From positions 1 through 30,452 of IMG/VR virus record IMGVR_UViG_3300024515_000289: a DNA stretch of 30,452 bases; one strand, written 5' to 3'. The stretch comes from a virus. Positions within the stretch are counted from its first letter, which is position 1. The number at the start of each line of letters is the position of its first letter. Positions 12,466 to 27,560 of this stretch are shown piece after piece. The notes beneath the pieces were generated by a model. It made no database searches, was not told the origin of the DNA, and saw only the letters and a list, made by a program, of their open reading frames with translations. Made by a program: the position numbers and the translations under genes.

Positions 12466-12480
12466 AACCCTCCCAAGAAA

Positions 12481-12520
12481 AAAGTAATATACAGTGCCCA
12501 TTATAGCAGTATATTACTTT
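12481..12520. promoter_or_regulatory. Perfect 12-base inverted repeat, candidate operator
   Basis: AAAGTAATATAC (12481-12492) and GTATATTACTTT (12509-12520) are exact reverse complements separated by 16 bases. One arm lies in the spacer of the promoter at 12500-12528; the other begins just past the expected transcription start. The geometry suits a dimeric regulator covering the -10/+1 region. The upstream arm would not be transcribed, so an RNA hairpin is not the explanation. Confidence 0.65.
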
Positions 12521-13050: not shown

Positions 13051-14148
13051 TTAAGTAAGTTGATTTGCTATATAGGGAAAAATTTTATCAAAGCTTTGAT
13101 CTCTAATATCATCATAAGTTTTTATATAATGCCAAGCCTGTTGTGACAAATCAGTTCCTGGTAAATTCATAAAATTTATAACATTTTGGAATCTGTTGGT
13201 TTTTCCTAGCTTTTTACTTATATATTCTTTTGCAGGCTCTGGTAAATTTTTTATACTAAAATAATCAGGATCAGACACCATACCCAAATAGGGATCATCC
13301 AGACCCTGCTTGTAACACCAGATGAAGAATTCTGGCAGATCAAGTACATTGAAAATACTTACTGTATGACTAATTTTAAGTATAATATTTGAATATAATT
13401 TGGACTTATCTTTATACCTGTTAATGTTAATCAAGCAATCTTGCCATTGAGCTGGCCATCTAATATACTCAAATTTTTCTTTTAAACCATCTATACTTAC
13501 CAGCAAAGTCACAGTCTTAAATTTTTCCCATCTAGACCAAAATTCATCTGTGGGGAAAACAGTACCGTTTGTTATGTGTGTTAGATTTATGTCCCCACTT
13601 GTATTGTTATCAATTAAAAAGTCCAACCACTCTAGTTGTTGGGTTGTACCTGATAAAAATGGTTCTCCTCCCGAGATTTCTATACTACTTAAATTAGTTA
13701 GGCTGTCACGCAGAGATTCAGTAAATTCTGGATTGTTATAAAATTTTTGGTGTTTATAAATGGTGATATCGGGAAGAATATTTTTAACTTTGCGTTCGTT
13801 ATCTGCCCACTTGCTGCTGGCATAACTATAACAAGTCCTGCAAGCAAGATTACAAGTGTTACCAAATGCCAATTGTAATTTTGTAAATGCCTGGCTAGTA
13901 GAACTAGTGGCACTAGATTCTAGCATTCTTTTAGACACTAAACCTGAATCTTCATCCTGCCAACAACGATTGCAACCGCTGGGCCTTTGTCCCTGTAGAA
14001 ATTGATCTTTTAGATCTTTAAGTTCAGGGCTATTCCTATAATCAACTAAGTTATCTGCTAGAGAATGTTTATATTTGCAGCAAGGACGAAAATTACCCTG
14101 AGGATCTATATCAAGATTGTCCCAGGGTAAAGAGCAATAGTGTTGCAT
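13051..14148 (-). CDS. Twitch-domain radical SAM protein (365 residues)
   Basis: Residues 1-65 form an N-terminal auxiliary cluster region: C5 (Y-C-S-L-P-W), D-P-x-G-x-x-x-x-C-C (C23, C24), then C59-N-R-C62-W. The radical SAM core follows with C-N-L-A-C-R-T-C (C99, C103, C106; CX3CX2C), G-G-E-P at 160-163, and a VSIDG block. This order is that of the 'twitch domain-containing radical SAM protein' group known from phages and some bacteria, whose substrates are not established. It sits between FolE with its partner and two small genes, three bases after 14152-14751. A role in modifying a protein, sugar or nucleic acid cannot be decided. Confidence 0.85.
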   Translation of the reverse strand: MQHYCSLPWDNLDIDPQGNFRPCCKYKHSLADNLVDYRNSPELKDLKDQFLQGQRPSGCNRCWQDEDSGLVSKRMLESSATSSTSQAFTKLQLAFGNTCNLACRTCYSYASSKWADNERKVKNILPDITIYKHQKFYNNPEFTESLRDSLTNLSSIEISGGEPFLSGTTQQLEWLDFLIDNNTSGDINLTHITNGTVFPTDEFWSRWEKFKTVTLLVSIDGLKEKFEYIRWPAQWQDCLININRYKDKSKLYSNIILKISHTVSIFNVLDLPEFFIWCYKQGLDDPYLGMVSDPDYFSIKNLPEPAKEYISKKLGKTNRFQNVINFMNLPGTDLSQQAWHYIKTYDDIRDQSFDKIFPYIANQLT

Positions 14149-14151
14149 TAA

Positions 14152-14751
14152 TTATTTTTTATCTGGAAAAGGCCAGACTGGCATTGACTCTATTACGTCC
14201 TTTTCCGAATCTGCCGGATTAATTTTAGCAAGTTCGTCGAAGCTTATTTCCTCATCATCTTCTTCTTTAAAGTCAACAGCGTTGCCATTCTCATCTGCAC
14301 AAATTATCTTGACACGATTGCCTAGTTCATCTTCTATTAGAATAGGCCCCCATACCCAGGCTTCAGTATCAGTCTGACTCCAACCTTCTTCATCTTCTAA
14401 AACTTCATATACGCTAGAATCACCAAAACGTTCTAATAATTGTTCCTGCTCTTCTTCGTCCATATCATCTGGGAAATCGAAATCCTCCCAGCATCCATCA
14501 GTCATACTGTCCAGTTCGGAATTAATAATGTTATTAACACAGCAATCGTACATATTAATACTGTCGCAGCGGCCATCACCGCCTGGAACGTAGGTAAACT
14601 CAAATTTGGGAGGAAGATCATCGTCTGTTTCTACAATAAAATTACTCCAACGATATCCAGTTTTGCGAACAATACTTTCACCATCTTTATAATAGTATTC
14701 GTGTTCTTCGCAGGACTTTTTATAATAAGTTGATACGTTCCAGGTAGCCAT
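14152..14751 (-). CDS. Acidic conserved phage protein, 199 residues
   Basis: The protein is very acidic, especially at 80-115 (DSMTDGCWEDFDFPDDMDEE) and again at 155-175. The N-terminal half has aromatic and cysteine-rich blocks (SCEEHEYYYKDGES, then MYDCCVNN) and EAWVWGPILIEDE follows. Such charge could mimic DNA or bind basic proteins, but that is speculation. Its ATG shares one base with the folE stop (TAATG at 14749-14753). No family function is known to me. Confidence 0.65.
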   Translation of the reverse strand: MATWNVSTYYKKSCEEHEYYYKDGESIVRKTGYRWSNFIVETDDDLPPKFEFTYVPGGDGRCDSINMYDCCVNNIINSELDSMTDGCWEDFDFPDDMDEEEQEQLLERFGDSSVYEVLEDEEGWSQTDTEAWVWGPILIEDELGNRVKIICADENGNAVDFKEEDDEEISFDELAKINPADSEKDVIESMPVWPFPDKK

Positions 14752-15431
14752 TAGTTATGTCCCTTCATACTTAGGCAGATGTCATAAAACTCTTTTTTAA
14801 GAGCGGGGTCTTCTAGAAAACGTCCTAGCATAATCGCTGTTGTCATATCGCTTTCGTGTTCACGTACACCACGGTGTGTCATACAATGATGTTCAGCTTT
14901 GACCACCACAGCAATATTTTCTGTTTTGGCATACTGTTTTAGTGCCTCAGCAATCTGTGTTGTCATTTCTTCCTGAATCTGTGGACGCTCACAGATATGG
15001 TGTACAATACGATTGAACTTACTTAGTCCAATCACTTCGTTCTCAGGAATAATACCCACCCAGCAACGGCCTACAATATTTTGAAAATGATGTGCGCAGG
15101 TGCTTCGAATAGAAATAGGGCCTGTGGTGTAAAGACTTTTATAACCTAGGTTAGGGAAGGCTGTGACCTTGGGAGTAGGCAGATAGCGTCCACTAAATGT
15201 TTCCTGAATAAACATTTTAGCCACACGCCTAGCAGTATCCTGTGTGTTGTGGTCGTTGTCAATATCAATAACCAAGCTACGCAGAACATCTTCTAGATTG
15301 GCTGCGACTTCGTCTTGTAGTAGTTCCAGTTCTTTATCCCGGATAAACTGAGCGATATTATCATTACTATGATATCTTGCACCAGCACTTAGGATACGCT
15401 GTCTTATTTCTTCACTAATAGGTAGTTTCAT
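14751..15431 (-). CDS. folE: FolE, GTP cyclohydrolase I
   Basis: This 226-residue enzyme opens the GTP ring to 7,8-dihydroneopterin triphosphate, the first step to folate and to 7-deazaguanines. Zinc ligands are present: C112 in S-T-C-A-H-H, and C183 in E-H-H-C-M-T-H-R-G-V. H114/H115 and the I-G-L-S-K-F-N-R motif at 134-141 are typical. Length matches bacterial FolE. In this phage it most likely feeds QueD and QueE encoded about 6-8 kb further on. It is eight bases after the small gene at 15440-15631 and shares the promoter at 15653-15681. Confidence 0.93.
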   Translation of the reverse strand: MKLPISEEIRQRILSAGARYHSNDNIAQFIRDKELELLQDEVAANLEDVLRSLVIDIDNDHNTQDTARRVAKMFIQETFSGRYLPTPKVTAFPNLGYKSLYTTGPISIRSTCAHHFQNIVGRCWVGIIPENEVIGLSKFNRIVHHICERPQIQEEMTTQIAEALKQYAKTENIAVVVKAEHHCMTHRGVREHESDMTTAIMLGRFLEDPALKKEFYDICLSMKGHN

Positions 15432-15439
15432 TTTTTTGA

Positions 15440-15631
15440 TTAGTTGTCACGTGGAAGGTGGGAAATTTCTGTTACAACTGCTAACATTGAATCTAGATCG
15501 TTGCATAGGATCTTGGCACTTGCCCAATCATTATCTTCATTGCGTCCACTTACATCTACCATAAATCCATTGTCGTACATATTGACAGTAAAACTGTCAC
15601 TTACTTTGCTTAGTTTGTCAGATACTTTCAT
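15440..15631 (-). CDS. Small conserved phage protein, 63 residues
   Basis: The ATG at 15631 (M-K-V-S-D-K-L-S-K-V) follows a strong AGGAGG site; a GTG 21 bases upstream would encode that site and is rejected. The family (DSFTVNMYDNGFMVDVSGR..D.DW..AKI) is common in T4-like phages with no known function. It is the first gene after the promoter at 15653-15681 and leads into folE. Confidence 0.78.
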   Translation of the reverse strand: MKVSDKLSKVSDSFTVNMYDNGFMVDVSGRNEDNDWASAKILCNDLDSMLAVVTEISHLPRDN

Positions 15632-15652
15632 ACTTCCTCCTTTTAATAGCAC

Positions 15653-15681
15653 ATATTAAACATTTTTTAGCAGTTTGTCAA
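15653..15681 (-). promoter_or_regulatory. Sigma70 promoter before the folE block
   Basis: TTGACA (15676-15681) and TAATAT (15653-15658) are 17 bases apart on the minus strand, within the last codons and stop of the glycosyltransferase gene. The start near 15646 gives a leader of about 15 bases that includes AGGAGG. It should drive 15440-15631, folE and the genes after. Confidence 0.82.
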
Positions 15682-16723
15682 GCATAACATTTGCATTTAG
15701 ATAAGTTTCAATAAGAATACGTCTTTGCCTTGCCAAAACATCCAAATACTTGTTACGATTATTAACACGTTCGTTAATAAAGTCTTTAAGATGACCTGCA
15801 TATTTGGTATAGGATTCAAAATTTTCTGTCCATTCTGCGGGATATTTAAATTCATCCATATACATTTCACTATAACTACATCTATCAGGTACAACTGGTA
15901 TTACACCTGCTAGAACACCTTCCATCATACTGATCCCAAGGTTTTCGTGCAGACTACAACTAAACATTACAGAGCAATCTCCCAGAGTTTCATAATAATC
16001 CTCCTTGGAAAGATTCATTTTTTGTGTAATGATTAACTTATGCCCTAGGCGATTTGCTAGATCTTCAACTATTTCCGGTTGTTTATCGGCATTGTATCTA
16101 TGAGGCCAAATAACTTTTTTCGATTTTGGTTTATACCATTGAACAGTACATTCTCCTATAATAGGATTATGTGGTTGGCCGCTTCTTACTGCACGGTGTT
16201 GTTCACTATCAATACCAAGATTCTTCAAAAACATATTTTTGTGAAACTCAGTGGCAAAATAATTAAAATCACAACTATAAAACCAACTACGTTCTTGATG
16301 CCAGGGCCAGGGCTTGTTCATCTTGTAGCCTAGTATATCACTTGGGTCATAGGCACCGGCGTGCCAGATGCCGTGTATTTCCACAGGAATGTCTAGTAAG
16401 TCACTCATATACTTAATGGGCGTGATTACAAAGTTCCAGGCATCGGTTACCAAAAACTTATCACCAGCCTTGATGACACCGTCACTAAACATACGACTAA
16501 TCTTTTCCGCCTGGCTTGCCTTGTAGACATTGGTGGCACCAAAATCTAAAAAAGCACCAGTGGTAGTATTAGGTGGAATGCTCACGCCATCGATTGTGAC
16601 CACTTTAACATCTAGAGTGCGTTTCTTTATTTCCTGATCTATTATCGTGGGAATATTTTGATACCATTGTTTGGTATATCTAGCGTCTATAGGTTCAATT
16701 GGAACAATATAGATAGTTGTCAT
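15656..16723 (-). CDS. GT-B fold glycosyltransferase
   Basis: This 355-residue protein has the two-domain look of GT-B enzymes. The C-terminal half holds the E-x7-E motif of family 4-like retaining transferases (H-E-N-L-G-I-S-M-M-E), followed by G-V-I-P-V-V-P-D, which binds the sugar nucleotide. A basic block (KVIWPHRYNADKQPE) starts the second domain. Phage enzymes of this kind usually glycosylate modified DNA bases or virion or surface sugars; the acceptor here is unknown. Its presence beside a base-modification pathway makes a DNA acceptor worth considering. It directly abuts the gene at 16724-17185. Confidence 0.8.
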   Translation of the reverse strand: MTTIYIVPIEPIDARYTKQWYQNIPTIIDQEIKKRTLDVKVVTIDGVSIPPNTTTGAFLDFGATNVYKASQAEKISRMFSDGVIKAGDKFLVTDAWNFVITPIKYMSDLLDIPVEIHGIWHAGAYDPSDILGYKMNKPWPWHQERSWFYSCDFNYFATEFHKNMFLKNLGIDSEQHRAVRSGQPHNPIIGECTVQWYKPKSKKVIWPHRYNADKQPEIVEDLANRLGHKLIITQKMNLSKEDYYETLGDCSVMFSCSLHENLGISMMEGVLAGVIPVVPDRCSYSEMYMDEFKYPAEWTENFESYTKYAGHLKDFINERVNNRNKYLDVLARQRRILIETYLNANVMLDKLLKNV

Positions 16724-17185
16724 TTACTTGTGTCCGTGCCATAAAGTTTGAGCTCCGGGAATAGCTGACTTTTCTAGTGCAGTATCCATTGCAGTTTTAG
16801 CTCGCACATCTGGAATCTTTTGTGCCAACTTTTCCAGAGTTCCCAATTGTGGACCCCACTGTTCGGGATATTTTGGGCGAGTGCCTTCTGTATGACTAAA
16901 GCTAGAAGCAGCAGCACGAGTAAAGGTTTCCAATCTATGAAACTGATCATCTAGATTGGTTAATCTAGTATTAAGGTTACGCACATCTTCATAAAGTCTG
17001 CGTAACGGCCCATTGCGATGGGTCAACCCTGTGTTTTTATCTTCAGGTTCCGTTAATATAACCATCATCATTAGTTGCCGTAGTGCATTTTTAATTCTAG
17101 GATCGTCGCTGGTCATTGCTGTATCAAACATATCAATGAAACGTTCCATATCAAAGTCTTCTTGGTCTTTTTCTCTCATTGCCAT
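16724..17185 (-). CDS. Conserved phage protein, 153 residues
   Basis: I start it at the ATG at 17185, which shares one base with the upstream stop (TAATG); upstream starts would read back into that gene. The N-terminal block D-M-E-R-F-I-D-M-F-D-T-A-M and the following K-N-A-L-R-Q-L-M-M-M-V-I-L-T are familiar from a T4-like phage hypothetical family. A predicted coiled coil follows (LYEDVRNLNTRLTNLDDQFH). The C-terminus is His-containing (WHGHK). Function unknown. Confidence 0.7.
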   Translation of the reverse strand: MAMREKDQEDFDMERFIDMFDTAMTSDDPRIKNALRQLMMMVILTEPEDKNTGLTHRNGPLRRLYEDVRNLNTRLTNLDDQFHRLETFTRAAASSFSHTEGTRPKYPEQWGPQLGTLEKLAQKIPDVRAKTAMDTALEKSAIPGAQTLWHGHK

Positions 17186-17448
17186 TATAACCATCCACCT
17201 GCTCTCGCAATTCCAATTATGCCTACTAGAATCCAAAAACCATTCAGTAGTGTATAGGCACGATCCTTTTTAAGAGTCGCGCAGTAAGTTAAGAGTATAG
17301 CATCAAGTGTATTAAAGACCCAGACAAACATAAAAGGACTTGCTGGGCCTAACCAGGACACTAGAGTAAAGCTGATGATACGCATTATTACACCCAACAT
17401 TTCCATAGCAGGAATGTTGGCCTTGATAAAATCAAGAACTATGTTCAT
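17185..17448 (-). CDS. Phage membrane protein, 87 residues
   Basis: Three hydrophobic segments appear at about residues 15-33, 37-56 and 68-84 (LNGFWILVGIIGIARAGG). The V-S-W-L-G-x-x-S-P-F and F-N-T-L-D-A-I-L-L-T-Y-C-A blocks recur in marine T4-like phages (recalled). The arrangement slightly resembles half of a small transporter. It overlaps the next gene upstream as ATGA (17445-17448). Confidence 0.7.
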   Translation of the reverse strand: MNIVLDFIKANIPAMEMLGVIMRIISFTLVSWLGPASPFMFVWVFNTLDAILLTYCATLKKDRAYTLLNGFWILVGIIGIARAGGWL

Positions 17449-17654
17449 TGTTGATTACTTTCTTTGTTTTGTTGACGCAACAGCCAGTTACGCTGTTTTT
17501 CAAATTTACGATACTGCTCGGATTTGTAGAGATCCTTCTCGTCAAACTTTAACATATAGTTACGGCAGTAGTCTCTGTATGCTTCTAGATCGTCAAAGAT
17601 CTTAGAAACTTCGGGTTTCATTTTAAAGTGCTTTTTGATATAAGCAGCTACCAT
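17445..17654 (-). CDS. Small conserved phage protein, 69 residues
   Basis: The ATG at 17654 has AAGGAG 7 bases upstream. The product is basic and helical, with I-F-D-D-L-E-A-Y-R-D-Y-C-R and F-D-E-K-D-L-Y-K-S motifs that I know from T4-like phage hypotheticals. Rich in Lys, Arg and Gln at the end (RNWLLRQQNKESNQQ). Nucleic-acid binding is possible but not shown. Confidence 0.7.
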   Translation of the reverse strand: MVAAYIKKHFKMKPEVSKIFDDLEAYRDYCRNYMLKFDEKDLYKSEQYRKFEKQRNWLLRQQNKESNQQ

Positions 17655-17664
17655 TTTATTCTCC

Positions 17665-18093
17665 TTAAACTTTAATTGATAGGGCAGGTTTATTTAGGTT
17701 ATAGCTAATAGCACAACCATTTTCGTTATCTTCACTGACTTCAATAATCACAGCTCGGCCGGGATATTTTTCAGCAATTTTAAGATATAGATCGTCAGCA
17801 ATCATTTCACAAGACTTATAGTTTAGTTCTAAAACTGAACTATCATACAACCCTTGTAGCCATCTTTTGAATTGGATGAATTCAATGTCCCTGTCATTAT
17901 GGAACACATCAATGTACACCCTGAAATGGAAGATGTGGCGATGAGGATGAGAGAGAAAACTAACGTCTTGTAACCGAGGATCTTCACCAGCTGCTGGATA
18001 GCAATGGATGCCCTCTTTTTGAAACGTAACCCAGATTTGTCTGCCTGCATTTTCCATTATCCTGTTTGCTGTTTCTCTTTGTTCTTGATTCAT
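17665..18093 (-). CDS. QueD/PTPS-like T-fold protein lacking the catalytic Asp-His
   Basis: This 142-residue protein follows the QueD core when aligned by eye. H-R-H-I-F-H-F (51-57) takes the place of H-G-H-S-F. S-C-E-M-I-A-D-D-L (94-102) matches the T-S-E-x-L-A-x-x-I helix, and E-V-S-E-D-N-E-N-G-C (118-127) matches the V-K-E-T-x-x-x-G-C strand. The Asp-His pair that QueD uses for catalysis has no counterpart. Proteins of this form are common hypotheticals in marine phages. It has its own promoter at 18126-18154 and lies 242 bases downstream of the DpdA-like gene, so a link to pterin or 7-deazaguanine chemistry is plausible, not proven. Confidence 0.55.
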   Translation of the reverse strand: MNQEQRETANRIMENAGRQIWVTFQKEGIHCYPAAGEDPRLQDVSFLSHPHRHIFHFRVYIDVFHNDRDIEFIQFKRWLQGLYDSSVLELNYKSCEMIADDLYLKIAEKYPGRAVIIEVSEDNENGCAISYNLNKPALSIKV

Positions 18094-18125
18094 AATTAAT
18101 TAAAATTTAAGTTGTTGGCAATAGT

Positions 18126-18154
18126 ATTATAATTAATGATCATCATCGTGTAAA
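18126..18154 (-). promoter_or_regulatory. Sigma70 promoter before the T-fold gene
   Basis: TTTACA (18149-18154) and TATAAT (18126-18131) are 17 bases apart on the minus strand; the -35 box lies in the end of the YdcH-like gene. The leader to the ATG at 18093 is about 26 bases, AT-rich, without an evident Shine-Dalgarno sequence. Confidence 0.75.
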
Positions 18155-18342
18155 GTATTATGGTCATAGTCCCATTGCAATCTATTTAGACGACTTATCT
18201 CATCTCTTAAAGAAAGTTTGCGTTTTTTTAACTCAGTTAACTTATCTTTTTCTACGTGCGGATGATTTCTTTCCATATCGTCGATTTGTTTATTTAAAAC
18301 TCGGTGCATTTCTTCTAGATGACGAATTTTTTCCTTATACAT
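18133..18342 (-). CDS. YdcH-like (DUF465) coiled-coil protein
   Basis: The ATG at 18342 follows GAGG at 6 bases and lies 5 bases inside the end of the DpdA-like gene. The 69-residue product is almost all coiled coil and matches YdcH: I-R-H-L-E-E-M-H-R-V-L-N-K-Q-I at the start, and L-K-K-R-K-L-S-L-R-D-E-I later. An acidic/His tail (DYDHNTLHDDDH) ends it. The function of YdcH proteins is unknown; they are probably small dimeric adaptors. Confidence 0.75.
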   Translation of the reverse strand: MYKEKIRHLEEMHRVLNKQIDDMERNHPHVEKDKLTELKKRKLSLRDEISRLNRLQWDYDHNTLHDDDH

Positions 18343-19909
18343 TGGATTCCTCAAATAAACTTGGATTTAATACTACTTCTGCTTTTTTACGTTCTACTGC
18401 TTCCGTTACTGGACCACTTCCTTCTAGATCGAAATGTTCCTGTAATTTAGTATGGGCGTTAACTGCACGTTTACCCAAAAAACCGTTTGCACTTGATCCC
18501 ACTATGCAGGTATACCATCTATCGAACTCGTCAATTTTACGCATTGCATCTGAGTGGGTAGGCGCACTAAAGATATCGTCAGTGACCTGACGAAAAGTCT
18601 CTCGCACTGTCACTTCACGTACAAGCATTTCTGGTATAACACCTGCATCGTAGAGTTCATTGCCATCCTGTACTGCCTTGAGATGAGCGTAGACATTGTG
18701 TCCCATTAAAATAGCATAGGCAAAACTGTCCCAGCTTGTGCGACCTTCCTTGCCTATCTTATTAAGATCGCCGGGGCCGTACCAACAGATATCGGAAATT
18801 TTAGTTCGATTAATTATGGGACTAGGAATAAATTCCTCAAATAATCCATCCTGTATAACAGCATCTCGGAAGTAACGATTGTCGTTGGCATACTTTTTGT
18901 CGTCTACACATTTTTTCATCTTGTAGCTCCATTTGGACCTATCCTCAAGATTATTTTTCCAGTAGACCTGACCGTTAGCAGTAGCTAGGAAAGGACTAGC
19001 ACAATCAAAACTGACAGTTAAATCAGGATTATGATATTTTCTCACAGCACGTTGTACATCAGTAAACAACATAGCCCACTCTAGTTTACTAGTTCCCAGA
19101 TAGTGTATCCAGTCCTGCTTGCCCTGTTCTAGAAGTCCGTCCTCCATAAGTGTGACTAGACGTTTTAGTACAAGATGCACATCACATTTATTTTGTGATC
19201 CCATAGCCCAACCATTAAAATGATCATTGGGGAATATACGATGATCACTGTATTTTTTCATCTCGGCATACCATTGATCTGCTTGTGTGTGATTGTCACC
19301 CTGTAGAACAGTAAGGAACTTACATCGACCTTTGCGATGTTTCATCCAGTACTCATAGTTGTACTTTGTTGCCTCCACGGCTTCATCATAGGTTGTAATT
19401 TTTGTAGCTTCACGACCCTTGGGTGTGCGGCCCACCCAGCCTGGGATATCAAGAGTCATACCGTAGTCCATATACTCTTCCATCCAGTCAAGTACCTGAA
19501 CACGTTTTTTCTGTGCCTGTGGACAACCACTGCCAGCTCGCCAGTCTCCTTCCCAGACACCTTTACCAATTTGAAATCCGCCACTATCTCCTAGAATAAA
19601 GGAATATTCTCGGTCGCGATTACGTACCATATCTTCTTCAGGAGCATCCTTGGTTATGTCTAGTTCAGCGTGACCTGCGGAGTAGAGTGCCCACTTGTAG
19701 GGAAAGTATGCCTCGGTGGGATTAAGCCAGTTCATACCCTCAATACCATTTTCAAAGTCTGAGGGTACACGAGCTTGTTCTACAAAATTTCCACGACGTT
19801 GTTTACCAATATAACCAGCATAAAAGCCACTTAATGCAGGTAAAAACACAGCGTATTTACTAAGTCCATTAGGTCCTAATTGTTTGGCTGTAAGATCATC
19901 ACGCTCCAT
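18335..19909 (-). CDS. dpdA: DpdA/TGT-like 7-deazaguanine transglycosylase
   Basis: This 524-residue protein resembles tRNA-guanine transglycosylases and their phage DNA-acting relatives (DpdA), which swap guanine for a 7-deazaguanine base. Key blocks are I-L-G-D-S-G-G-F-Q at 106-113 (base-binding Asp108), D154 in LDIPGW, Q-G-D-N at 203-206, G-W-A-M-G-S at 233-238 (like the GGLAVG loop), and S-F-D-C-A-S-P-F at 300-307, in which D302 corresponds to the nucleophilic aspartate of the TGT D-C-V-x-P motif. I do not find the CxCxxC zinc site of tRNA enzymes, and the protein is longer than bacterial TGT (about 375). Together with FolE, QueD and QueE, DNA is the likely target. AAGGA precedes the ATG. 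Confidence 0.85.
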   Translation of the reverse strand: MERDDLTAKQLGPNGLSKYAVFLPALSGFYAGYIGKQRRGNFVEQARVPSDFENGIEGMNWLNPTEAYFPYKWALYSAGHAELDITKDAPEEDMVRNRDREYSFILGDSGGFQIGKGVWEGDWRAGSGCPQAQKKRVQVLDWMEEYMDYGMTLDIPGWVGRTPKGREATKITTYDEAVEATKYNYEYWMKHRKGRCKFLTVLQGDNHTQADQWYAEMKKYSDHRIFPNDHFNGWAMGSQNKCDVHLVLKRLVTLMEDGLLEQGKQDWIHYLGTSKLEWAMLFTDVQRAVRKYHNPDLTVSFDCASPFLATANGQVYWKNNLEDRSKWSYKMKKCVDDKKYANDNRYFRDAVIQDGLFEEFIPSPIINRTKISDICWYGPGDLNKIGKEGRTSWDSFAYAILMGHNVYAHLKAVQDGNELYDAGVIPEMLVREVTVRETFRQVTDDIFSAPTHSDAMRKIDEFDRWYTCIVGSSANGFLGKRAVNAHTKLQEHFDLEGSGPVTEAVERKKAEVVLNPSLFEESNV

Positions 19910-20258
19910 CTTGTTCCTTTTCTTCTTGTTGACATAGGACTTTTAACATTTCAAATTTATCATATAGATCTTTTAGACCAGGATGTTTATCCATAAGTCT
20001 CTTAAGCTCTTGTTCTTCTTGCATTTTTTGGCGTGCCCAGTCAATGGCAGAAGCTGCATCTCCAGTCAAGTCTAAGTGTGTATGTCCTGATTGTATTTGA
20101 AGCCAATTAAACCCATCATAAACTTCAAAACCCTGCAGACTTGTATTAAATCTTACCTGTCCCACATTAAGAGCTCCGGGACTGGGATTCATATAAGTGG
20201 GCGAGGGGTTTCCATTATTCACACTTACATATCTACTGCCAGTGAGGGATCTAATCAT
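19899..20258 (-). CDS. Conserved phage protein, possibly virion-associated
   Basis: The first 55 residues are Gly/Asn/Pro/Ser-rich and end in V-G-Q-V-R-F-N-T-S-L-Q-G-F-E-V-Y-D-G-F-N-W-L-Q-I. This pattern is typical of fibre- or neck-related phage proteins ('Y-D-G-x-x-W'). The rest is helical and charged (ASAIDWARQKMQEEQELKR, then a Q/E-rich tail). I know the family as a hypothetical in T4-like phages. ATGA overlap with the clamp gene; 11-base overlap with the DpdA-like gene. Placement between clamp and base-modification genes is unusual for a structural protein, so the role is open. Confidence 0.65.
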   Translation of the reverse strand: MIRSLTGSRYVSVNNGNPSPTYMNPSPGALNVGQVRFNTSLQGFEVYDGFNWLQIQSGHTHLDLTGDAASAIDWARQKMQEEQELKRLMDKHPGLKDLYDKFEMLKVLCQQEEKEQDGA

Positions 20259-20986
20259 TTTTGTTGTGCTGGTAAAATATAGTTGTAGTCTACAATACCA
20301 CTATCCACAGTGATCATCGCTGCACCCTGATCACTAATTTTAAAAGTCTTATCGCCAGGCAGTGATAGAATACCAATCGCTGCATTAATAGGCCAACTCC
20401 AAGCCTTGGTTAAGTTGCCATTAACGCCGGACTGAAACACAAAGTTACCTGCGTGGGTACTATGATCACCAAAGTAAAACTTAAGGTCTCCGTTTTCTAC
20501 CTTGGCAATGAAGGTAGTTTCTTCACTGTTTGCACTAGCCTGAAAACGTAGACGCTGGATACTGGCCACGCTGGGCACTAGTTCAACGTCCCAGGTAACG
20601 CCTTTGAATTTAATAGTTTTAAGTTTGTCATTGACAATCTCGGCACTCATAAATCTGTAGTCATTGATAAAGTCACGATTGGCGTTTTCAAAGTGTACAC
20701 CCACAGGAACATCTTCACCATCACGGTTTTGTTTAACCACAGTGATGTTGGGATTTTCTTTATATTCGGGAATGTTTAGGATAGTGTTTAGTTTGTTTAG
20801 ATTTGGCATACCAAAAGTGCCAATAAAGTCGGGCACAATGCCCTTGAATTTGGCCATAACAATAACACTGCGGTCTCCGGCTACTGCTTCAAGATTAGTT
20901 TCCTGATCAGTGCCTGTGATTTTTACAAGGTCGATAAATCCCAGACTGTGAGTGTGGGCTACGATATCTTGAAGATAGTCTTTCAT
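20255..20986 (-). CDS. 45: Sliding clamp, gp45-like polymerase processivity factor
   Basis: At 243 residues this is close to T4 gp45 (228) in length and matches the clamp family I recall from marine T4-like phages (M-K-D-x-L-x-D-I-V-A-H-T-H-x-L-G-F near the start, T-F-G-M-P-N-L-N-K-L-N-T-I-L-N-I-P and F-Y-F-G-D-H-S-T-H-A-G-N). The family forms a trimeric ring that tethers polymerase to DNA and in T4 also activates late transcription. The start at 20986 follows TGGAG; an ATG 12 bases upstream lies within that site and is rejected. It heads its own block under the promoter at 21011-21039. Identification is by pattern recall, without a search. Confidence 0.78.
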   Translation of the reverse strand: MKDYLQDIVAHTHSLGFIDLVKITGTDQETNLEAVAGDRSVIVMAKFKGIVPDFIGTFGMPNLNKLNTILNIPEYKENPNITVVKQNRDGEDVPVGVHFENANRDFINDYRFMSAEIVNDKLKTIKFKGVTWDVELVPSVASIQRLRFQASANSEETTFIAKVENGDLKFYFGDHSTHAGNFVFQSGVNGNLTKAWSWPINAAIGILSLPGDKTFKISDQGAAMITVDSGIVDYNYILPAQQK

Positions 20987-21010
20987 TGAAGTCTCCATAA
21001 ATGTATTAAA

Positions 21011-21039
21011 AGTGTAACGTTTATATTTAGATCAGTCAA
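21011..21039 (-). promoter_or_regulatory. Sigma70 promoter of the clamp gene
   Basis: TTGACT (21034-21039) and TACACT (21011-21016) are 17 bases apart on the minus strand, in the 66-base gap after the methyltransferase gene. The leader is about 18 bases and carries TGGAG. It separates the clamp-dpdA block from the polymerase block. Confidence 0.78.
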
Positions 21040-21052
21040 GATCTTTGATATA

Positions 21053-22054
21053 TTAGGTGTTTACGATTTCACCTAAAGTTGGGTGTGCTCTTATTGATTG
21101 TAAAATGCCTGGTTTTTTAAGTGTAACTGTGGAAATATCTTCCTCTGGGTGGTTAAATTCTACTATTTCTAGTTCGAATTTTTGAGCTAGTTGCTCTAGT
21201 AATTTTTTATTCATCCAGGGTTTGTACCTTTTATCAACAAACTGGGCGCCGCGTGGTGTATCACAGTCGTTGAAGTCAAAAAACATTATACCACCTGGTC
21301 TTAATAGTCTACTACATTCATTGAGTACTCTTCCCAGTTCGAAATAATAGTAGTAGCTAAGTGTGTTCCAGCTAAAAATAAAACCTAGTTGATTTTTGGG
21401 AAGTCTAGAATATTGTTCAATGCGTACATTGCGATCTATTAAGTATGGACGCAACCTTCTCTGATAAGTTTTGTTGAATTTATTTAGAGTGCTGTCTAGT
21501 GCCTCCTGATATAGATCAGTAAGATAAAGAGGATCAGCAGCTACCATCCAGGGAGTAAATTCACTGTTTCCACATCCTATCTCCAAGGCAGGATATTGCC
21601 AACCAGTGTATTTAGATATAATATTTTTCACAAACTCTCTGGTAGTATCTTCTATTTTCAAATAGCGTAGATTTTTTTCATTCTCGTAATTTTCTAATAG
21701 CTGATTGTCGACTCCATCTTGGTTGTCGTTCAAAAAACTAAAATATAATAGGGGCGAAGTTAATAGCTCTATCTTTTTATCTATATTTTCCAGACAAGTT
21801 TGTACATACTTAGTTTCTTTATCAGTATATAAAATAATAGAATGCAAACTGGTCAATAGATCATCAACTAGATTGTAACCAAATTCTGGGTCTCCAAGAG
21901 AGTCACGTTCTGATTCTATATAATGATTAATTGTGTTTGTATAGACATCTTTAAGGTCCTTGAGATGTATTTCTAGTCCTCTAAGATCAATGTTGCTCAG
22001 ACTTTGCCTTAGAGCTATTAGATTTTTCAAACTTAGATTATTGATATTAGGCAT
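21053..22054 (-). CDS. Class I SAM-dependent methyltransferase
   Basis: Of 333 residues, the first 140 are helical and charged, with no recognised domain. The methyltransferase domain follows: motif I is A-L-E-I-G-C-G-N-S-E-F at 156-166, the acidic end of strand 2 is likely D180 in LTDLYQ, and N-E-C-S-R-L-L-R-P-G-G-I-M-F-F-D-F is the post-motif III block typical of Methyltransf_11-like enzymes. Substrate unknown. It begins two bases after the radical SAM gene at 22057-23196, so the two enzymes are almost certainly co-expressed and may act on one substrate (inference). The end is 14 bases from the -35 box of the clamp promoter. Confidence 0.82.
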   Translation of the reverse strand: MPNINNLSLKNLIALRQSLSNIDLRGLEIHLKDLKDVYTNTINHYIESERDSLGDPEFGYNLVDDLLTSLHSIILYTDKETKYVQTCLENIDKKIELLTSPLLYFSFLNDNQDGVDNQLLENYENEKNLRYLKIEDTTREFVKNIISKYTGWQYPALEIGCGNSEFTPWMVAADPLYLTDLYQEALDSTLNKFNKTYQRRLRPYLIDRNVRIEQYSRLPKNQLGFIFSWNTLSYYYYFELGRVLNECSRLLRPGGIMFFDFNDCDTPRGAQFVDKRYKPWMNKKLLEQLAQKFELEIVEFNHPEEDISTVTLKKPGILQSIRAHPTLGEIVNT

Positions 22055-22056
22055 TA

Positions 22057-23196
22057 CTATAAAAATTCATTAAGATTAGTTGCGTTTATTTTTGACTCTT
22101 TGAGTAAAGGGTTCTGCATTATTTTTAGAAACTCGTTGTGCTCAGGGTGACTAGTATGCCAAATAGCGTGATCTTTAAATGTATTTAGACCATTTTCTGT
22201 CCAGGTACCCCAGTCTACTACTTTTTGAAAACTTATAACATCAAAATCTAGAGACTTACATAATTCTATAAACTGGGGAATGTCTCTGTAATTATTAGTT
22301 TGAACTACAAAGTTTGATTCTATAATTACTTTAGATTTATTCTGTTTTTTCCAGTCTACCAAAAATTTACTACTAGACAACAATTTATTCCATTCCCCGC
22401 CACGCCTAGTTAATTTATATACAGGTTCAGAGCCAGCATCAAAACTAATACGGACTCTTTCTATGTTTTTGTGTACATTTGCCAATTTATGCCAGTGCGC
22501 CTCTAATAGTATTCCGTTAGTAACTATTTCTATTTGTGTATCTGGTCTATTTTTGAGATCAAGCTTGGTTAAAAGTTCTCTATAAATTAAACTTGCAAAA
22601 GGATCACCGTCGCCACTAAGTGTAAATCTTAACCATTCAGTTTGTTTTTGTATTAGCTTGACAAGATGATCTACTATCTTGATTCTTTTGTCGTATTCAG
22701 GACCTTCATTGATAAACTGAAAGTTTTTCCTGCAACTAGGACAGGTAAGATTGCAACTACTATCAATGGCAAAGTTAATCCAGTTTATACTATCTAGTTT
22801 AGTGTCAAAATTAGTCACTAATTCTTTCTCAGGTTCTTGAAGTAGTCCGCATTCAGAACTACAGTACCTATAACTACCGTCCAGGATGCTAGCCTGTATT
22901 GCTCTTGCTCTTGGACTACGTATAATTTCATCCAGTGAGTTAAACTCCCAGACTTTTCCTAGGCTTATGGGCAACCAGACCTGACAGATACAGGCATAGA
23001 TATCACCTTCTCCATCCACAGTGATTGTATTGAAGGGGTGTAGGCAATACCTCCCCAGTAGTTTAAGATCTTTGTTAAAATTCATTCCACGTTGTATGTA
23101 ATTCCAACTGTGTGCTGGAGCCACGTCACGCTGTGTAAAAATTTTTACATTCTTGTATTCTGGGTTTTCTATATCTATAACAGATCTTGATTTCAT
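22057..23196 (-). CDS. Radical SAM protein with auxiliary-cluster cysteines (379 residues)
   Basis: An N-terminal segment has C51 (R-Y-C-L-H-P-F), the pair C69-I-C71 in Y-A-C-I-C-Q, and C112/C116 in Y-C-S-S-E-C, which suggests an auxiliary iron-sulfur cluster. The core motif is S-C-N-L-T-C-P-S-C (C148, C152, C155). Instead of G-G-E-P the protein has S-G-D-G-D-P-F (194-200). It differs from the other two twitch proteins in having C-x-C in place of CC and in this loop. Its ATG overlaps the polymerase stop (ATGA at 23193-23196), so it should be made whenever polymerase is. The methyltransferase follows directly. Substrate unknown. Confidence 0.82.
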   Translation of the reverse strand: MKSRSVIDIENPEYKNVKIFTQRDVAPAHSWNYIQRGMNFNKDLKLLGRYCLHPFNTITVDGEGDIYACICQVWLPISLGKVWEFNSLDEIIRSPRARAIQASILDGSYRYCSSECGLLQEPEKELVTNFDTKLDSINWINFAIDSSCNLTCPSCRKNFQFINEGPEYDKRIKIVDHLVKLIQKQTEWLRFTLSGDGDPFASLIYRELLTKLDLKNRPDTQIEIVTNGILLEAHWHKLANVHKNIERVRISFDAGSEPVYKLTRRGGEWNKLLSSSKFLVDWKKQNKSKVIIESNFVVQTNNYRDIPQFIELCKSLDFDVISFQKVVDWGTWTENGLNTFKDHAIWHTSHPEHNEFLKIMQNPLLKESKINATNLNEFL

Positions 23197-25892
23197 TCAA
23201 ATTCAAATAAACTCTCAAAAGTAGAACTTATATCAGTGTTTTCTGCTATTCGCCAGTTTAGTACACCCAGTAAGTTCTCTATTTTTTTATCTACAATAGT
23301 AGTTTCCATTGTATCACTGTCGAAAGGCAAATCTTTAAACCATTGCGGGATATGACTTTCATCTGTGGGATAGCCCACACTTGTAAAGCCCATAGGATTA
23401 TTTTTTAATTTACATACAATAGTTTTCATACCATCCACAATGGCCATACTGTAGTTATCACTGTTCATCTTACGCAACTTATTCCAGTTATAGGCAGCGC
23501 GAACGTGGCCTGGGAGGTTAGCCTTGCTGTTAGCTTCAGCCATTGCAGTGTATTTTGTCAAATTATTAACACGTTTAGGAGTTCCCTTTTCCCAGGCGGG
23601 AAGATTCTGAAAGTTTATTTTAAATTGTTTTATTTTGTCTAGAATTTGATTCTTGGGAATATCAGTGAGCACATCTAGTAATATTTCACTAAGAAAGTCC
23701 TGCACTACCTTGGGGGTATCAGATCGTTTGAGGTCAAGACCCATAGCCTTGACCTTGCCTGGTTTCCCTCCAGTGTCCAATCTTTTTCCTTCTTTATCAT
23801 AAATTAAAACTGCATATCTCTTTTTAGTTATAAAAAGACCCTTGGTTGCTACTAGTTCTCGACCGCCACGTATAATTGCACCCTGTTCTCTAGGGCAATG
23901 AAAACTTTGTTCCATCATTGCAGGAAAACTATCATTGAGTTGATCAGCAATGTTGTCATAGACCTGCAGGCAAATTTCTTTACTCCATTCCATCCTACCA
24001 GCATTAACATCATCACGTATCAAGGGCCAGGCACTAAAATATACAGAATCAGTATCACCATAGATCACTGCTTCACCCACGTGATCATATTTTCCTGTAA
24101 TAGCTTCGTTTACAAAACTATCCATATGCTTGGCGATAGTTCTGCCGCAGAGTGTGGTACTTTGTCCGATCCTGTGATCAAAAAATCTACAGTAGGGATT
24201 TAAGATAGCACCGTATAGACTGTTAAGATTAATCTTTTTAACTAACTGACGCTTATCCCAGTATTCTTGTTCTTCTACAGTACCAGTGGCAATACATTCT
24301 TTAAGCTTGGCTTGCATTTGTTTACGTTCAGCATACCAGCGTTCCAGTAGTCCCGGCACGATGCCTTTTCTATCCGAACTAAAAATTGTGCCGTTGGCGC
24401 TCAATATCCAGGATTTGTTGCTATTAAAGATAAGATGCCAGACATCACGGGCACTTAATACATCGCTGCTGCCATCAACCTCCCAGTCAATGGTAATTTC
24501 TGTACCAGCATCCATACGCATCACTGCTTCATACTCAAGACTACCAAACAGTCCCTCCCAGCTTGCAGCAAAACTCTTGCCCTCTTGCATTTTTTTCTGT
24601 ATGTATCTTTCTGTCATTATGGGACGTAATTGGCCCACAATGGTTTCTGGTCCCATATTCAGTGCTCTAATTGCGCTGGGATACAGTGAGTTGATGTCAA
24701 TGGCTCCGATGTATTCGTGGACTCCGGCCTTGGGCGTAGCAACATAGGCACCTGCTGCTTGAGTTTCGTCGAATCCTTCGTCTTCAAGATCGTCGTCTCG
24801 GGAATCTTTGACTTGCTTGTTAGGTACGACCAAGTTCTGACTGTGTGCTTCATTGATGATTGCCTGTTCAGTGGTTGCCACTGCACCCATTGTGGTTTGC
24901 AATAGTACAGTGTTGTCGTGTGCAATTGTGTTGGCTAGATCTAGAAAACGCAATTTTTTATCTAGTTTGGCCAACAGTCTTGTATCCTGCCTGTTGTACT
25001 CTATAAATTTTTCAAAGTCTCTGTTGTATAACTGGTCCAGCGTACCTTCGTAGGGGGTTTTACTGCCACATTCCTCATATTCACCAATAGCATCTAGACT
25101 GTAACTATGTCGTTCTTCATAGGTATATTTTCTGTAGAGCTGCATATAGTCTAGATGAACTCGACCAAATAATTCAAAGGTCATTTGTTCAGCGCCGAAT
25201 CTTTCAAAATGTTTTACTCTGGGCATCATCCCCCAGAGACACATTCTTCTTGTATCATCCTTGCTGAGCACACGAGTAATTCTACCAATAGTGTAGGGAA
25301 TATCATAACCCTCACTGTTCCAGCCACTCAGTATGTCAGCATCTTCTATTAGATTTAGGAAAGTATCCAGTAACTCTGCTTCGCTGGTAAAAATAAATGT
25401 GTCAGTAAATTTAACTGCTATTTCATCTGCTGTTTTAACACTCATTGCCTTGGGAGGTATGGCTAGAGTAATTAACTTGTCCATCCAGTCAAGATACAAG
25501 CTTATGGCTGTGATCTTACTAAAGGGATCTGTGATGGGAGCGAAGCCACGTTCACTGTCGAAGTCTGTTTCAATATCGAAAAAAGCAGTGTGTAGTTTTG
25601 GTGGATCAGCACCTAGATAATTATCTTCCAGGCATCTGTTAACTGGCTTAATGTCACTTTCCCAGATTCTCTTATGCCCGTGTATTCTAAGTTCCTTTTG
25701 GAATTCTTTATTGTTAATGGTAGTTACACGAGTAACTGGCGTGCCATAGATTGTGCGGTGTTTGCCACGAGGGTCATCATAGTAGAATGTATAATTTACT
25801 GGATACTCACGGAACACTCTTTCTCCATTTATACGTTCAACCACACGAACCAGATCTTTATCTTTGTCGTAATTTGCATCAATATAACTCAT
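23193..25892 (-). CDS. 43: Family B DNA polymerase, gp43-like
   Basis: This 899-residue replicative polymerase matches T4/RB69 gp43 in length (898/903). The exonuclease motif is F-F-D-I-E-T-D (D106, E108), with Y-N-R-Q-D-T near 299-304. Polymerase motif A is D-I-N-S-L-Y-P-S at 399-406, motif B K-I-N-L-N-S-L-Y-G at 553-561, and motif C Y-G-D-T-D-S at 611-616. The C-terminal S-L-F-E-F-E resembles the clamp-binding tail of RB69 polymerase, fitting a gp45-like clamp nearby. The promoter at 25899-25927 predicts transcription from the ATG itself, and there is no Shine-Dalgarno sequence. It is followed without a gap by a radical SAM gene and a methyltransferase. Confidence 0.95.
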   Translation of the reverse strand: MSYIDANYDKDKDLVRVVERINGERVFREYPVNYTFYYDDPRGKHRTIYGTPVTRVTTINNKEFQKELRIHGHKRIWESDIKPVNRCLEDNYLGADPPKLHTAFFDIETDFDSERGFAPITDPFSKITAISLYLDWMDKLITLAIPPKAMSVKTADEIAVKFTDTFIFTSEAELLDTFLNLIEDADILSGWNSEGYDIPYTIGRITRVLSKDDTRRMCLWGMMPRVKHFERFGAEQMTFELFGRVHLDYMQLYRKYTYEERHSYSLDAIGEYEECGSKTPYEGTLDQLYNRDFEKFIEYNRQDTRLLAKLDKKLRFLDLANTIAHDNTVLLQTTMGAVATTEQAIINEAHSQNLVVPNKQVKDSRDDDLEDEGFDETQAAGAYVATPKAGVHEYIGAIDINSLYPSAIRALNMGPETIVGQLRPIMTERYIQKKMQEGKSFAASWEGLFGSLEYEAVMRMDAGTEITIDWEVDGSSDVLSARDVWHLIFNSNKSWILSANGTIFSSDRKGIVPGLLERWYAERKQMQAKLKECIATGTVEEQEYWDKRQLVKKINLNSLYGAILNPYCRFFDHRIGQSTTLCGRTIAKHMDSFVNEAITGKYDHVGEAVIYGDTDSVYFSAWPLIRDDVNAGRMEWSKEICLQVYDNIADQLNDSFPAMMEQSFHCPREQGAIIRGGRELVATKGLFITKKRYAVLIYDKEGKRLDTGGKPGKVKAMGLDLKRSDTPKVVQDFLSEILLDVLTDIPKNQILDKIKQFKINFQNLPAWEKGTPKRVNNLTKYTAMAEANSKANLPGHVRAAYNWNKLRKMNSDNYSMAIVDGMKTIVCKLKNNPMGFTSVGYPTDESHIPQWFKDLPFDSDTMETTIVDKKIENLLGVLNWRIAENTDISSTFESLFEFE

Positions 25893-25898
25893 AGGTCT

Positions 25899-25927
25899 AT
25901 TCTACTTTTTATTATTAAACAAGTCAA
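25899..25927 (-). promoter_or_regulatory. Sigma70 promoter of DNA polymerase, leaderless geometry
   Basis: TTGACT (25922-25927) and TAGAAT (25899-25904) are 17 bases apart on the minus strand, inside the last codons of the small membrane gene. The A of the polymerase ATG (25892) is exactly seven bases past the -10 box, the same geometry as at RNase H. Confidence 0.78.
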
Positions 25928-26042
25928 CTAAGAATGTGCTTAAATTTGCTAGTTGTAGCCCAAGATATAAAAATAAAAATACCACTAGTCCTAGTAATAT
26001 CCAGTAACCTACTAGACTTGCCAGGATGATAAGATTATTCAT
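25902..26042 (-). CDS. 46-residue membrane protein before DNA polymerase
   Basis: The frame runs from an ATG at 26042, 8 bases inside the end of the radical SAM gene, to a TAG at 25902. Residues 4-31 are strongly hydrophobic (L-I-I-L-A-S-L-V-G-Y-W-I-L-L-G-L-V-V-F-L-F-L-Y-L), enough for one long membrane segment. A short polar tail ends in N-N-K-K. It fills the only gap in this block. Its last codons hold the polymerase promoter. Function unknown. Confidence 0.65.
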   Translation of the reverse strand: MNNLIILASLVGYWILLGLVVFLFLYLGLQLANLSTFLVDLFNNKK

Positions 26043-27300
26043 AATAAATCTGGTAGATATTTTTTATATCAAGTTCAGGATGAAGTTTTTGTATACTGTC
26101 TAATAGCTCAAGCATTGGAACATTAGTGTCAGCCCATTCTATTGTATCAAAGTAATTCATCATAGAATTATAAACACGGGAATCCCTAATAGACACTGTA
26201 TCTTGAAACTGCTGTTTAATTTTTTCCATAACTTTTCTAGGTACTATTTCTAAACCTGTGCTCTGTGTCTTGGAAACTACGATATTTAGGTTTATGAGAT
26301 GTACGGGTATTTTGCATTCAGATTTATCTACTAAAAAATCCCAAAGTTTATGAATATGATGTATGTTTAAAGCTGTTACTGTAGTATTAATGCAATAAGT
26401 TATATTGGTATTTTCCTGCCAAAATTTATGTAATTTTTGATAGTTCGAGTAAATCATAGTCCAATTACTGGGTGTCCTCTGAATATACGCTATTTCGTCC
26501 ATACCATCTATACTAGAGGTAACAATAACTTTTTTGAATGGTTTAACACAATCTAACAATCTTTTGTTAATATTAGTTGTATTAGTTATAATCTGAATTT
26601 CTAAATTGTCTATATTTTTACTATATTTTAATTCTTCTAAAAAACGGATATTTTCTTCTAATAGTGTAGGTTCCCCACCAGTAAGATTAATGTGGTAAAC
26701 ACTATCTTTGATTTCTGAAAAAATCTTGGTCATCGTGTGAGTTTTAGGCCAGTTGTAATTTCTACCAAAAGACATATATATATCTTCAGGATGGCCCATA
26801 AGACTATGAAGTTTAGTATCTTTAATAGTTAGATTTTTCTTTTTATAAAATTTACTCCAAGTATTACTATAACGAGGATAACACATTTTGCAAGCTAGAT
26901 TGCATAAATTTCCACTCATAACCTGGAAGTCCACTGGATGGTTATCGATTCTTCCCTGATTTTCTTCAGCCTGCCTTGTACTACTTGCAAAGTCAAGACC
27001 CTGGTTCTGGAATACTTGAAACCTCCCCACACTACTTTTTCTTGTACTAACAGAGCTATCATTCAACTCTGTGGTCCAGCATTGATGACAACTAGCTGGC
27101 TGCTCACCTTGTAAAAACTTTTTTCTAAGTGTTTTATAATGATCACTATTCCAGGCTTCGAGTAGACTGTGTGTTTGGACGTTAAATTTCTGTCCTTTAC
27201 TATCTAGATTTTGCCCTGCGTCACTACAGCATACCAGTATGTTGCCATCTGGATCAATATGCATACTGCCAAATGGCATAGGGCAAAACTTATTTGACAT
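26035..27300 (-). CDS. Twitch-domain radical SAM protein (421 residues)
   Basis: The N-terminal twitch part has C6 (F-C-P-M-P-F), D-P-D-G-N-I-L-V-C-C (C24, C25) and C71-H-Q-C74-W. The radical SAM core has C-N-L-A-C-K-M-C (C133, C137, C140), G-G-E-P-T-L, and S-S-I-D-G. The layout equals that of the protein at 13051-14148 but with a longer linker (about residues 76-120) and a longer C-terminus, so they are diverged homologues, not recent duplicates. Its ATG shares a base with the stop of the DsbA-like gene (TAATG), placing it in the early/replication transcript from 27583-27611. Substrate unknown. Confidence 0.85.
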   Translation of the reverse strand: MSNKFCPMPFGSMHIDPDGNILVCCSDAGQNLDSKGQKFNVQTHSLLEAWNSDHYKTLRKKFLQGEQPASCHQCWTTELNDSSVSTRKSSVGRFQVFQNQGLDFASSTRQAEENQGRIDNHPVDFQVMSGNLCNLACKMCYPRYSNTWSKFYKKKNLTIKDTKLHSLMGHPEDIYMSFGRNYNWPKTHTMTKIFSEIKDSVYHINLTGGEPTLLEENIRFLEELKYSKNIDNLEIQIITNTTNINKRLLDCVKPFKKVIVTSSIDGMDEIAYIQRTPSNWTMIYSNYQKLHKFWQENTNITYCINTTVTALNIHHIHKLWDFLVDKSECKIPVHLINLNIVVSKTQSTGLEIVPRKVMEKIKQQFQDTVSIRDSRVYNSMMNYFDTIEWADTNVPMLELLDSIQKLHPELDIKNIYQIYYE

Positions 27301-27560
27301 TAAAGTGTTTTTCCAACAGTTTGAAGAATAGTATTTAGTTCTTCATTGTCAGCATTTTCATCACCAAGTTTGGATTTAAATGCGATCTTGATAGCCTTTT
27401 TAAGTATAGCTGGTTTAATTTCCATTTCTTCAGCTACAGCCTTGACAGTATCATTTAGGCCTGCGGTTAAATCTTCTACTTCCTGCATCACAGTCATACC
27501 TTCATTGATTAGCTGTGTTAGTTTTGCTTTTTGGTCACTGGAAAACATTCTACTAGACAT
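27300..27560 (-). CDS. dsbA: DsbA-like small dsDNA-binding protein
   Basis: This 86-residue helical protein resembles the T4 DsbA family, which binds double-stranded DNA near late promoters. It has D-Q-K-A-K-L-T-Q-L-I-N-E-G at the start, L-N-D-T-V-K-A-V-A-E-E-M-E-I-K-P-A-I-L-K-K-A-I in the middle and an acidic tail. The similarity is to marine T4-like homologues I remember and is not certain. (The T4 protein is unrelated to the bacterial disulfide oxidoreductase of the same name.) The ATG at 27560 is preceded by AAGGAG, and the promoter at 27583-27611 lies just upstream. Confidence 0.6.
   Translation of the reverse strand: MSSRMFSSDQKAKLTQLINEGMTVMQEVEDLTAGLNDTVKAVAEEMEIKPAILKKAIKIAFKSKLGDENADNEELNTILQTVGKTL

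Follow-up and report, generated by a model that had tools for sequence, protein, structure and literature searches.

BtrN, a 2-deoxy-scyllo-inosamine (cyclitol) dehydrogenase, is a radical S-adenosylmethionine (SAM) enzyme with a twitch domain, and DesII is a radical SAM enzyme acting on a dTDP-sugar. In the known twitch enzymes the twitch domain comes after the radical SAM core. That large aquatic phages carry expanded sets of radical SAM genes has been known for years, with no substrate found in the literature searched; passages of two reports describe a T4-like marine genome with 12 radical SAM genes (Nishimura 2017, PMC5332604) and pelagimyophages that differ by their radical SAM cassettes (PMC7029224). 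The phage RB69 carries candidate UDP-arabinose genes in a plastic region beside its polymerase, which were proposed to serve DNA arabinosylation (PMC6024577). The stretch analysed here (the window) is a 30452 bp viral fragment, IMG/VR record IMGVR_UViG_3300024515_000289, and within these bounds encodes three radical SAM proteins, termed rSAM1, rSAM2 and rSAM3, besides a QueE-like protein. What is new at this locus is that rSAM2 and the class I methyltransferase encoded next to it form a locked, often fused unit between a family B DNA polymerase (PolB) and a sliding-clamp-like protein, and this unit is a testable element.

The rSAM2-METHYLTRANSFERASE unit was traced through relatives of rSAM2 encoded in 30 viral loci. 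Wherever a PolB-linked locus was readable, rSAM2 was found between PolB and the methyltransferase (22/22 loci), as a separate gene in 12 and fused to the methyltransferase in 10, the fusion being one open reading frame (ORF) of about 690 amino acids (aa) that was first seen in L016, where it has 698 aa. Within the window the methyltransferase starts 2 bases after rSAM2, a coupling absent from the original prediction made for this DNA. A PolB tree with 83 rows served to count gain and loss, and on it the fused state changes once among the rSAM2-bearing rows; the methyltransferase absences of L071 and L074 in the accompanying table are contig ends. To avoid bias, a second set was gathered through a TGT-like gene, comprising 65 non-redundant loci that have both PolB and the clamp, independently of the three radical SAM genes. 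The PolB–clamp intervals of this set contained neither gene in 46 cases, the methyltransferase alone in 17, both in two and rSAM2 alone in none. Given that the order of the pair is locked and that the two are often fused, rSAM2 works with the methyltransferase of the next gene and, since the methyltransferase also exists without it, rSAM2 appears to have been added to an enzyme that is older. The partner contains the class I motif EIGCG, and the [DNS]PP[YFW] motif of N6A/N4C DNA methyltransferases is absent from it. A model of the fused protein reached a pLDDT of 88.8 with a pTM of 0.64, and because the latter is modest its domain arrangement was not used. With the fusion, a direct search for the substrate can start from one polypeptide. 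The genes of rSAM1, rSAM2 and rSAM3 and those beside them are arranged as follows.

13051..14148, minus strand: rSAM1, N-terminal-twitch radical SAM protein (NF033640, N_Twi_rSAM), 365 aa, 296.8 bits against a cut-off of 170
14751..15431, minus strand: FolE, GTP cyclohydrolase I (PF01227, E 1.5e-45)
20255..20998, minus strand: sliding-clamp-like protein, assigned by position and likeness (phrog_12062, of unknown function; 36% identity to the PA5oct homologue)
21053..22054, minus strand: class I SAM methyltransferase (PF08241, 32.4 bits; Pfam Methyltransf_11/25), fused to rSAM2 in relatives
22057..23196, minus strand: rSAM2, divergent N-twitch radical SAM protein, 379 aa (PF04055, 43.1 bits; PF13186, 27.1 bits, at the N-terminus)
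23193..25892, minus strand: PolB, family B DNA polymerase (PF00136, E 2.7e-36)
26035..27300, minus strand: rSAM3, N-terminal-twitch radical SAM protein (NF033640), 421 aa, 249.8 bits against 170
27300..27560, minus strand: T4 DsbA-like transcription regulator (phrog_639, E 5.3e-8)

The original prediction of three distinct radical SAM proteins with auxiliary-cluster cysteines was borne out, all three being ORFs on the minus strand at the places it had given. Each contains the CX3CX2C motif of the radical SAM superfamily, together with GGEP in rSAM1 and rSAM3 and SGDGDP in rSAM2, and PF04055 was matched above its cut-off by rSAM2 and rSAM3, with rSAM1 at 28.3 vs 29.5 bits. Membership of the N_Twi family was defined as a whole-protein score above the curated NCBIfam NF033640 cut-off of 170 bits. 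At 49 bits rSAM2 is not a member by this threshold; when the N_Twi and rSAM2 sets were aligned as profiles (hhalign), the N-terminal domain and the core both aligned, with a probability of 99% and an E of 3.2e-18. Because of the NF033640 scores and this profile–profile alignment, the three proteins share one common plan of an N-terminal twitch-type domain followed by the radical SAM core, and rSAM2 is placed as a divergent sister lineage of the NF033640 family, related to it at the profile level only. The twitch domain is permuted relative to the known twitch enzymes, the SPASM/twitch match falling at residues 5-116 in each of the three proteins, ahead of the core.

The N-terminal cysteines are C5, C23, C24, C59 and C62 in rSAM1 (core C99/C103/C106), C51, C69, C71, C112 and C116 in rSAM2 (core C148/C152/C155) and C6, C24, C25, C71 and C74 in rSAM3 (core C133/C137/C140). 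The pattern is thus CX17C(C)...CX2C followed by CX3CX2C in rSAM1 and rSAM3, and CX17CXC...CX3C followed by CX3CX2C in rSAM2. Four putative ligands for one auxiliary [4Fe-4S] cluster are present; these four (C6, C24, C71 and C74) and the core CX3CX2C are unchanged in 37/37 N_Twi proteins, as are the eight cysteines of rSAM2 in 25/25 relatives. Such invariance, together with the NF033640 scores, places the N-terminal cysteine sets far beyond chance. The second cysteine of the N_Twi 'CC' is probably no ligand, as it is replaced by N or H in several of the 37 proteins; a wider N_Twi alignment showed too much divergence to be scanned for patterns. With the NF033640 family rSAM2 shares the N-terminal twitch and radical SAM core of rSAM1 and rSAM3, from which it differs by a fifth conserved N-terminal cysteine, by CX3-4C in place of CX2C and by its methyltransferase partner.

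The couplings to neighbouring genes were found exactly as described before: rSAM2 starts within the PolB stop, the two genes sharing 4 bases (ATGA), the start of rSAM3 overlaps the stop of the DsbA-like gene by 1 base (TAATG), and rSAM1 follows FolE with the unknown gene o199 as the only one between them. A shared function of the trio did not hold up, since the genes come and go separately, the outcome that the original prediction had itself named as speaking against it. On the PolB tree the presence of rSAM2 changes at least seven times and that of the N_Twi gene immediately ahead of PolB at least six times, and orthologues of rSAM1 were confined to near-identical contigs, followed by one 31% relative in viral contigs. 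The three proteins do not form one system; each was gained on its own. Co-occurrence across phages, to which the original prediction had looked, left the trio independent and yielded instead the rSAM2–methyltransferase partnership, the strongest functional signal and one that had gone unnoticed. Three radical SAM genes are also an ordinary load for such viruses. Large virus records picked for holding an N_Twi gene gave 3 to 23 matches each at an E of 0.001 or better, a count in which the sub-cut-off matches include other radical SAM proteins, and one 260 kb record (G001) holds 11 N_Twi genes above the cut-off. The window resembles the marine T4-like expansions in its many radical SAM genes and variable cassettes, and the passages of those reports (PMC5332604, PMC7029224) describe no PolB–rSAM2–methyltransferase–clamp unit, no fusion and no slot for sugar genes. 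A megablast search of cultured phages with the window returned no match, and tblastn with rSAM2 returned none either.

The interval between PolB and the clamp ranges from 7 to 3941 bases across the loci read. All 32 occupied loci that lack the methyltransferase (redundant copies included) carry at least one of four families, namely cytidylyltransferase-like (PF01467), NAD-dependent epimerase (PF01370), phosphomannomutase-like (PMM, PF03332) and UDP-glucose/GDP-mannose dehydrogenase (PF00984); examples among relatives are L205:6591-9125, L218:4189-6861 and L231. Given these genes, the place next to the polymerase is a slot for variable cargo, in large part sugar-nucleotide genes, and exonuclease, ALAD, TauD and NifU-like genes occur in it too. 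Position in the slot is no proof of action during DNA synthesis. Such action had been read from the interleaving of the radical SAM genes with replication genes, and so had a joint function; neither is upheld, the interval being variable cargo with sugar-nucleotide genes in sister viruses, and 46/65 unbiased intervals having neither rSAM2 nor its methyltransferase. A nucleotide-linked sugar, also put forward earlier as a substrate, gains support as a possibility. The arrangement recalls RB69, likewise T4-like, where candidate sugar-nucleotide genes beside the DNA polymerase were proposed to feed a DNA glycosyltransferase (PMC6024577); there the base is hydroxymethylcytosine (hmC), whereas the module of the window consists of FolE, QueD and QueE with a DpdA-like gene.

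The slot comparison narrows the candidate substrates to sugars, and the reading tentatively preferred, at somewhat less than an even chance, is that rSAM2 and the methyltransferase act as a two-step unit for BtrN/DesII-like sugar editing, an accessory tailoring function in large T4-like aquatic phages. By analogy with BtrN and DesII, the 5'-deoxyadenosyl radical would remove a hydrogen at one carbon atom of a sugar that is either nucleotide-linked or already transferred, and the twitch cluster would accept an electron as in BtrN to give a keto or deoxy sugar. The methyltransferase would then methylate the same sugar, which phage glycosyltransferases would use or carry, the final acceptor candidates being a surface glycan, the virion or DNA. 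rSAM1 and rSAM3 may perform the same kind of chemistry at other positions or on other glycans.

When the N-terminal twitch profile was searched against the PDB, BtrN was the sole match (E 0.0036), with the four cluster cysteines aligned and the CX17C...CX2C spacing shared. For the rSAM2 domain of the fused-protein model, DesII was the best radical SAM structure among the matches listed (Z 17.2 over 231 residues, 3.8 Å). Gene context points the same way in places: viral N_Twi arrays accompany carbamoyltransferase and DegT genes (L057, L117 and L116), the N_Twi genes of Halobacteriovorax and Mesorhizobium lie within polysaccharide loci, and a PF00534 protein is encoded two genes away from KVP40.0272, an N_Twi relative. 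The glycosyltransferase group 1-like protein of the window (GT1) has no detectable similarity to KVP40.0274, so the KVP40 operon enters the argument by family type only.

Several observations weigh against sugar editing. The BtrN match of the twitch profile is weak. The twitch of BtrN is C-terminal, following the core, whereas that of the window proteins is N-terminal, and their core matches BtrN no better than other families. DesII gave no match at the sequence level, and the N-terminal twitch and the methyltransferase partner fall outside the structural match. The specificity of the fold is weak as well, leaving the sugar a candidate substrate: the AlphaFold2 model of rSAM3 (pLDDT 94.2) matched many radical SAM families in a tie at Z 12-13, and the methyltransferase fold matched small-molecule and protein enzymes alike, tied at Z 16-18. 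In one lineage (L057/L065) rSAM2 is part of an N_Twi array that lacks the methyltransferase. The sugar-gene slots occur mainly in another clade than the methyltransferase slots, and their equivalence may reflect one deep swap. Bacterial N_Twi neighbourhoods are mixed, with about 9/76 neighbours matching glycan families, on which ground a general glycan context for bacterial N_Twi genes was rejected. Among the matches listed for the rSAM3 model, none covered the twitch domain and the core together, and no claim of a new fold is made. An rSAM2 profile of 3 sequences found no chain in the PDB, and one of 20 sequences found core matches only (MoaA, NifB, viperin and similar). Viral N_Twi neighbour families were mostly without a Pfam match, and two of them (302 aa and 268 aa), considered as glycosyltransferase-like for their DxD-type motifs only, were not used as evidence.

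The remaining genes of the window that bear on its possible DNA modification are listed below.

7149..7997, minus strand: QueE-like, the fourth radical SAM protein (phrog_2076, E 1.4e-56)
8164..8682, minus strand: QueD-like protein (phrog_2389, E 4.4e-37)
9395..9952, minus strand: phosphoribosyltransferase (PF00156, E 3.9e-14), which recurs in the same module of relatives
15656..16723, minus strand: GT1, GT4-type glycosyltransferase-like (PF00534, 23.6 bits, under the cut-off of 26.4), with an invariant EX7E (E260, E268)
18335..19909, minus strand: TGT/DpdA-like protein with the motifs DSGGFQ, QG and FDCASP...NG

In a motif alignment the TGT-like protein shows DSGGFQ, QG and FDCxxP...NG in the order expected of TGT/DpdA proteins. 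It gave no Pfam, NCBIfam or PDB match and its profile found no TGT chain; against E. coli Tgt (hhalign) the motif order was correct, in a weak match with a probability of 10.8%. Where more than 6 kb downstream was readable, TGT-like loci also carry o142 (44/44), GT1 (43/44) and FolE (42/44). Across 20 large records GT1 was present, with some weak matches, in exactly the 12 that have the TGT-like gene (Fisher p 8e-6, uncorrected for kinship, with G017 as the sole negative record of the same polymerase). A GT1 profile found one PDB chain, SAKe6FR, judged to be chance. Three cultured P. aeruginosa phages, PA5oct, MIJ3 and Paride, match the TGT-like gene. In PA5oct (MK797984 222985-225668) this gene shares 1 base with a GT1 homologue (36% identity, E 1e-66), with QueE near the pair and no N_Twi gene present. 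One form of sugar editing would place the sugar on 7-deazaguanine in DNA: the DpdA-like protein would insert the base, GT1 would glycosylate it, the slot would supply the sugar nucleotide and, in the clade of the window, rSAM2 and the methyltransferase would edit the sugar. We regard this version as distinctly doubtful, and the literature searched held no paper describing glycosylated 7-deazaguanine in DNA. If true, it would be a new class of DNA hypermodification, testable in phages already cultured.

Other substrates have to be weighed against a sugar. Many SPASM enzymes act on peptides (PMC11002830), and the three enzymes could likewise be of the SPASM/twitch type, altering a protein of the phage or the host by cross-links, epimerisations or in other ways. 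Weak core matches to maturases of ribosomally synthesised and post-translationally modified peptides (RiPPs), and the tie of the methyltransferase fold with the N-terminal protein methyltransferase NTMT1, agree with this. The SPASM/twitch domain is N-terminal, however, and so departs from the C-terminal SPASM of the RiPP maturases; rSAM2 has a methyltransferase as its partner, with sugar or replication genes around it, and no short precursor-like ORF was seen beside it, ORFs below 60 aa not having been searched systematically. Peptide or protein modification is considered unlikely, though it is the foremost of the alternatives. Direct tailoring of the 7-deazaguanine base, made by FolE, QueD and QueE and inserted by the DpdA-like protein, would give rSAM2 and the methyltransferase a substrate from their own region, which holds FolE, QueD, QueE and the TGT-like gene, and passages of one report describe 7-deazaguanine bases in phage DNA that are tailored further (PMC12783734). 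Yet in 45/65 loci the stretch retrieved contained none of the methyltransferase, rSAM2 and N_Twi genes while the TGT-like gene was present and FolE and QueE persisted where readable, and N_Twi genes are plentiful in G017, a record with PolB and no TGT-like gene. Tailoring of the module's product is thereby allowed and a required role is not, and we hold this account to be improbable.

The sub-threshold matches to pVip and NF038283 raise the question of viperin-like enzymes making ddh-nucleotides, all the more as viperin groups are reported from Schizotequatrovirus in a survey of vibriophages (PMC12028318) and schizotequatroviruses carry N_Twi relatives. The NF038283 scores were 37.5, 45.3 and 54.6 bits against a cut-off of 180, the viperin/pVip matches (37-55 vs 180) cover the shared radical SAM core only, and viperins are without an N-terminal twitch domain, which makes a viperin-like activity very improbable. 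The 'viperins' reported for schizotequatroviruses (PMC12028318) may themselves be N_Twi-like proteins such as the three of KVP40. Finally, the radical SAM proteins could be passengers with different, unrelated substrates, their sugar context being a coincidence of hot spots in phage genomes. Independent gains and losses, the exonuclease, ALAD, TauD and NifU-like genes of the slot and the mixed bacterial context of N_Twi genes all speak for it; the order and fusion of rSAM2 and the methyltransferase are too constant for chance, and mere coincidence is considered rather unlikely.

A number of further features were recorded. The three N_Twi-like proteins of KVP40, a model vibriophage, fall below the family cut-off (NC_005083 135058-144460). 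A tandem fusion of two N_Twi proteins forms one 903 aa ORF at L057:4796-7507, and in an otherwise syntenic virus the clamp gene is directly followed by another short radical SAM protein, one that has no N-terminal twitch (L016:13808-14707). Three contigs titled as Betaproteobacteria, Rickettsiales and Pelagibacter metagenome-assembled genomes (L154, L155 and L156) are phage-like, with N_Twi arrays and the neighbours of viral loci. In predatory bacteria of the Bdellovibrionota (G029, G032, G033 and G034) the chromosome holds N_Twi radical SAM genes in large expansions comparable to those of phages. In the window itself, the 849 aa protein encoded at positions 9952-12501 has a signal-like N-terminus and FG-GAP repeats, which makes it an unusual neighbour for queuosine-type and replication genes. 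Positions 28613-29962, on the opposite strand, encode a 449 aa protein without a family match that recurs near N_Twi genes (L015 and L094) and, by eye, resembles a fusion of glycosyltransferase-like and methyltransferase-like parts.

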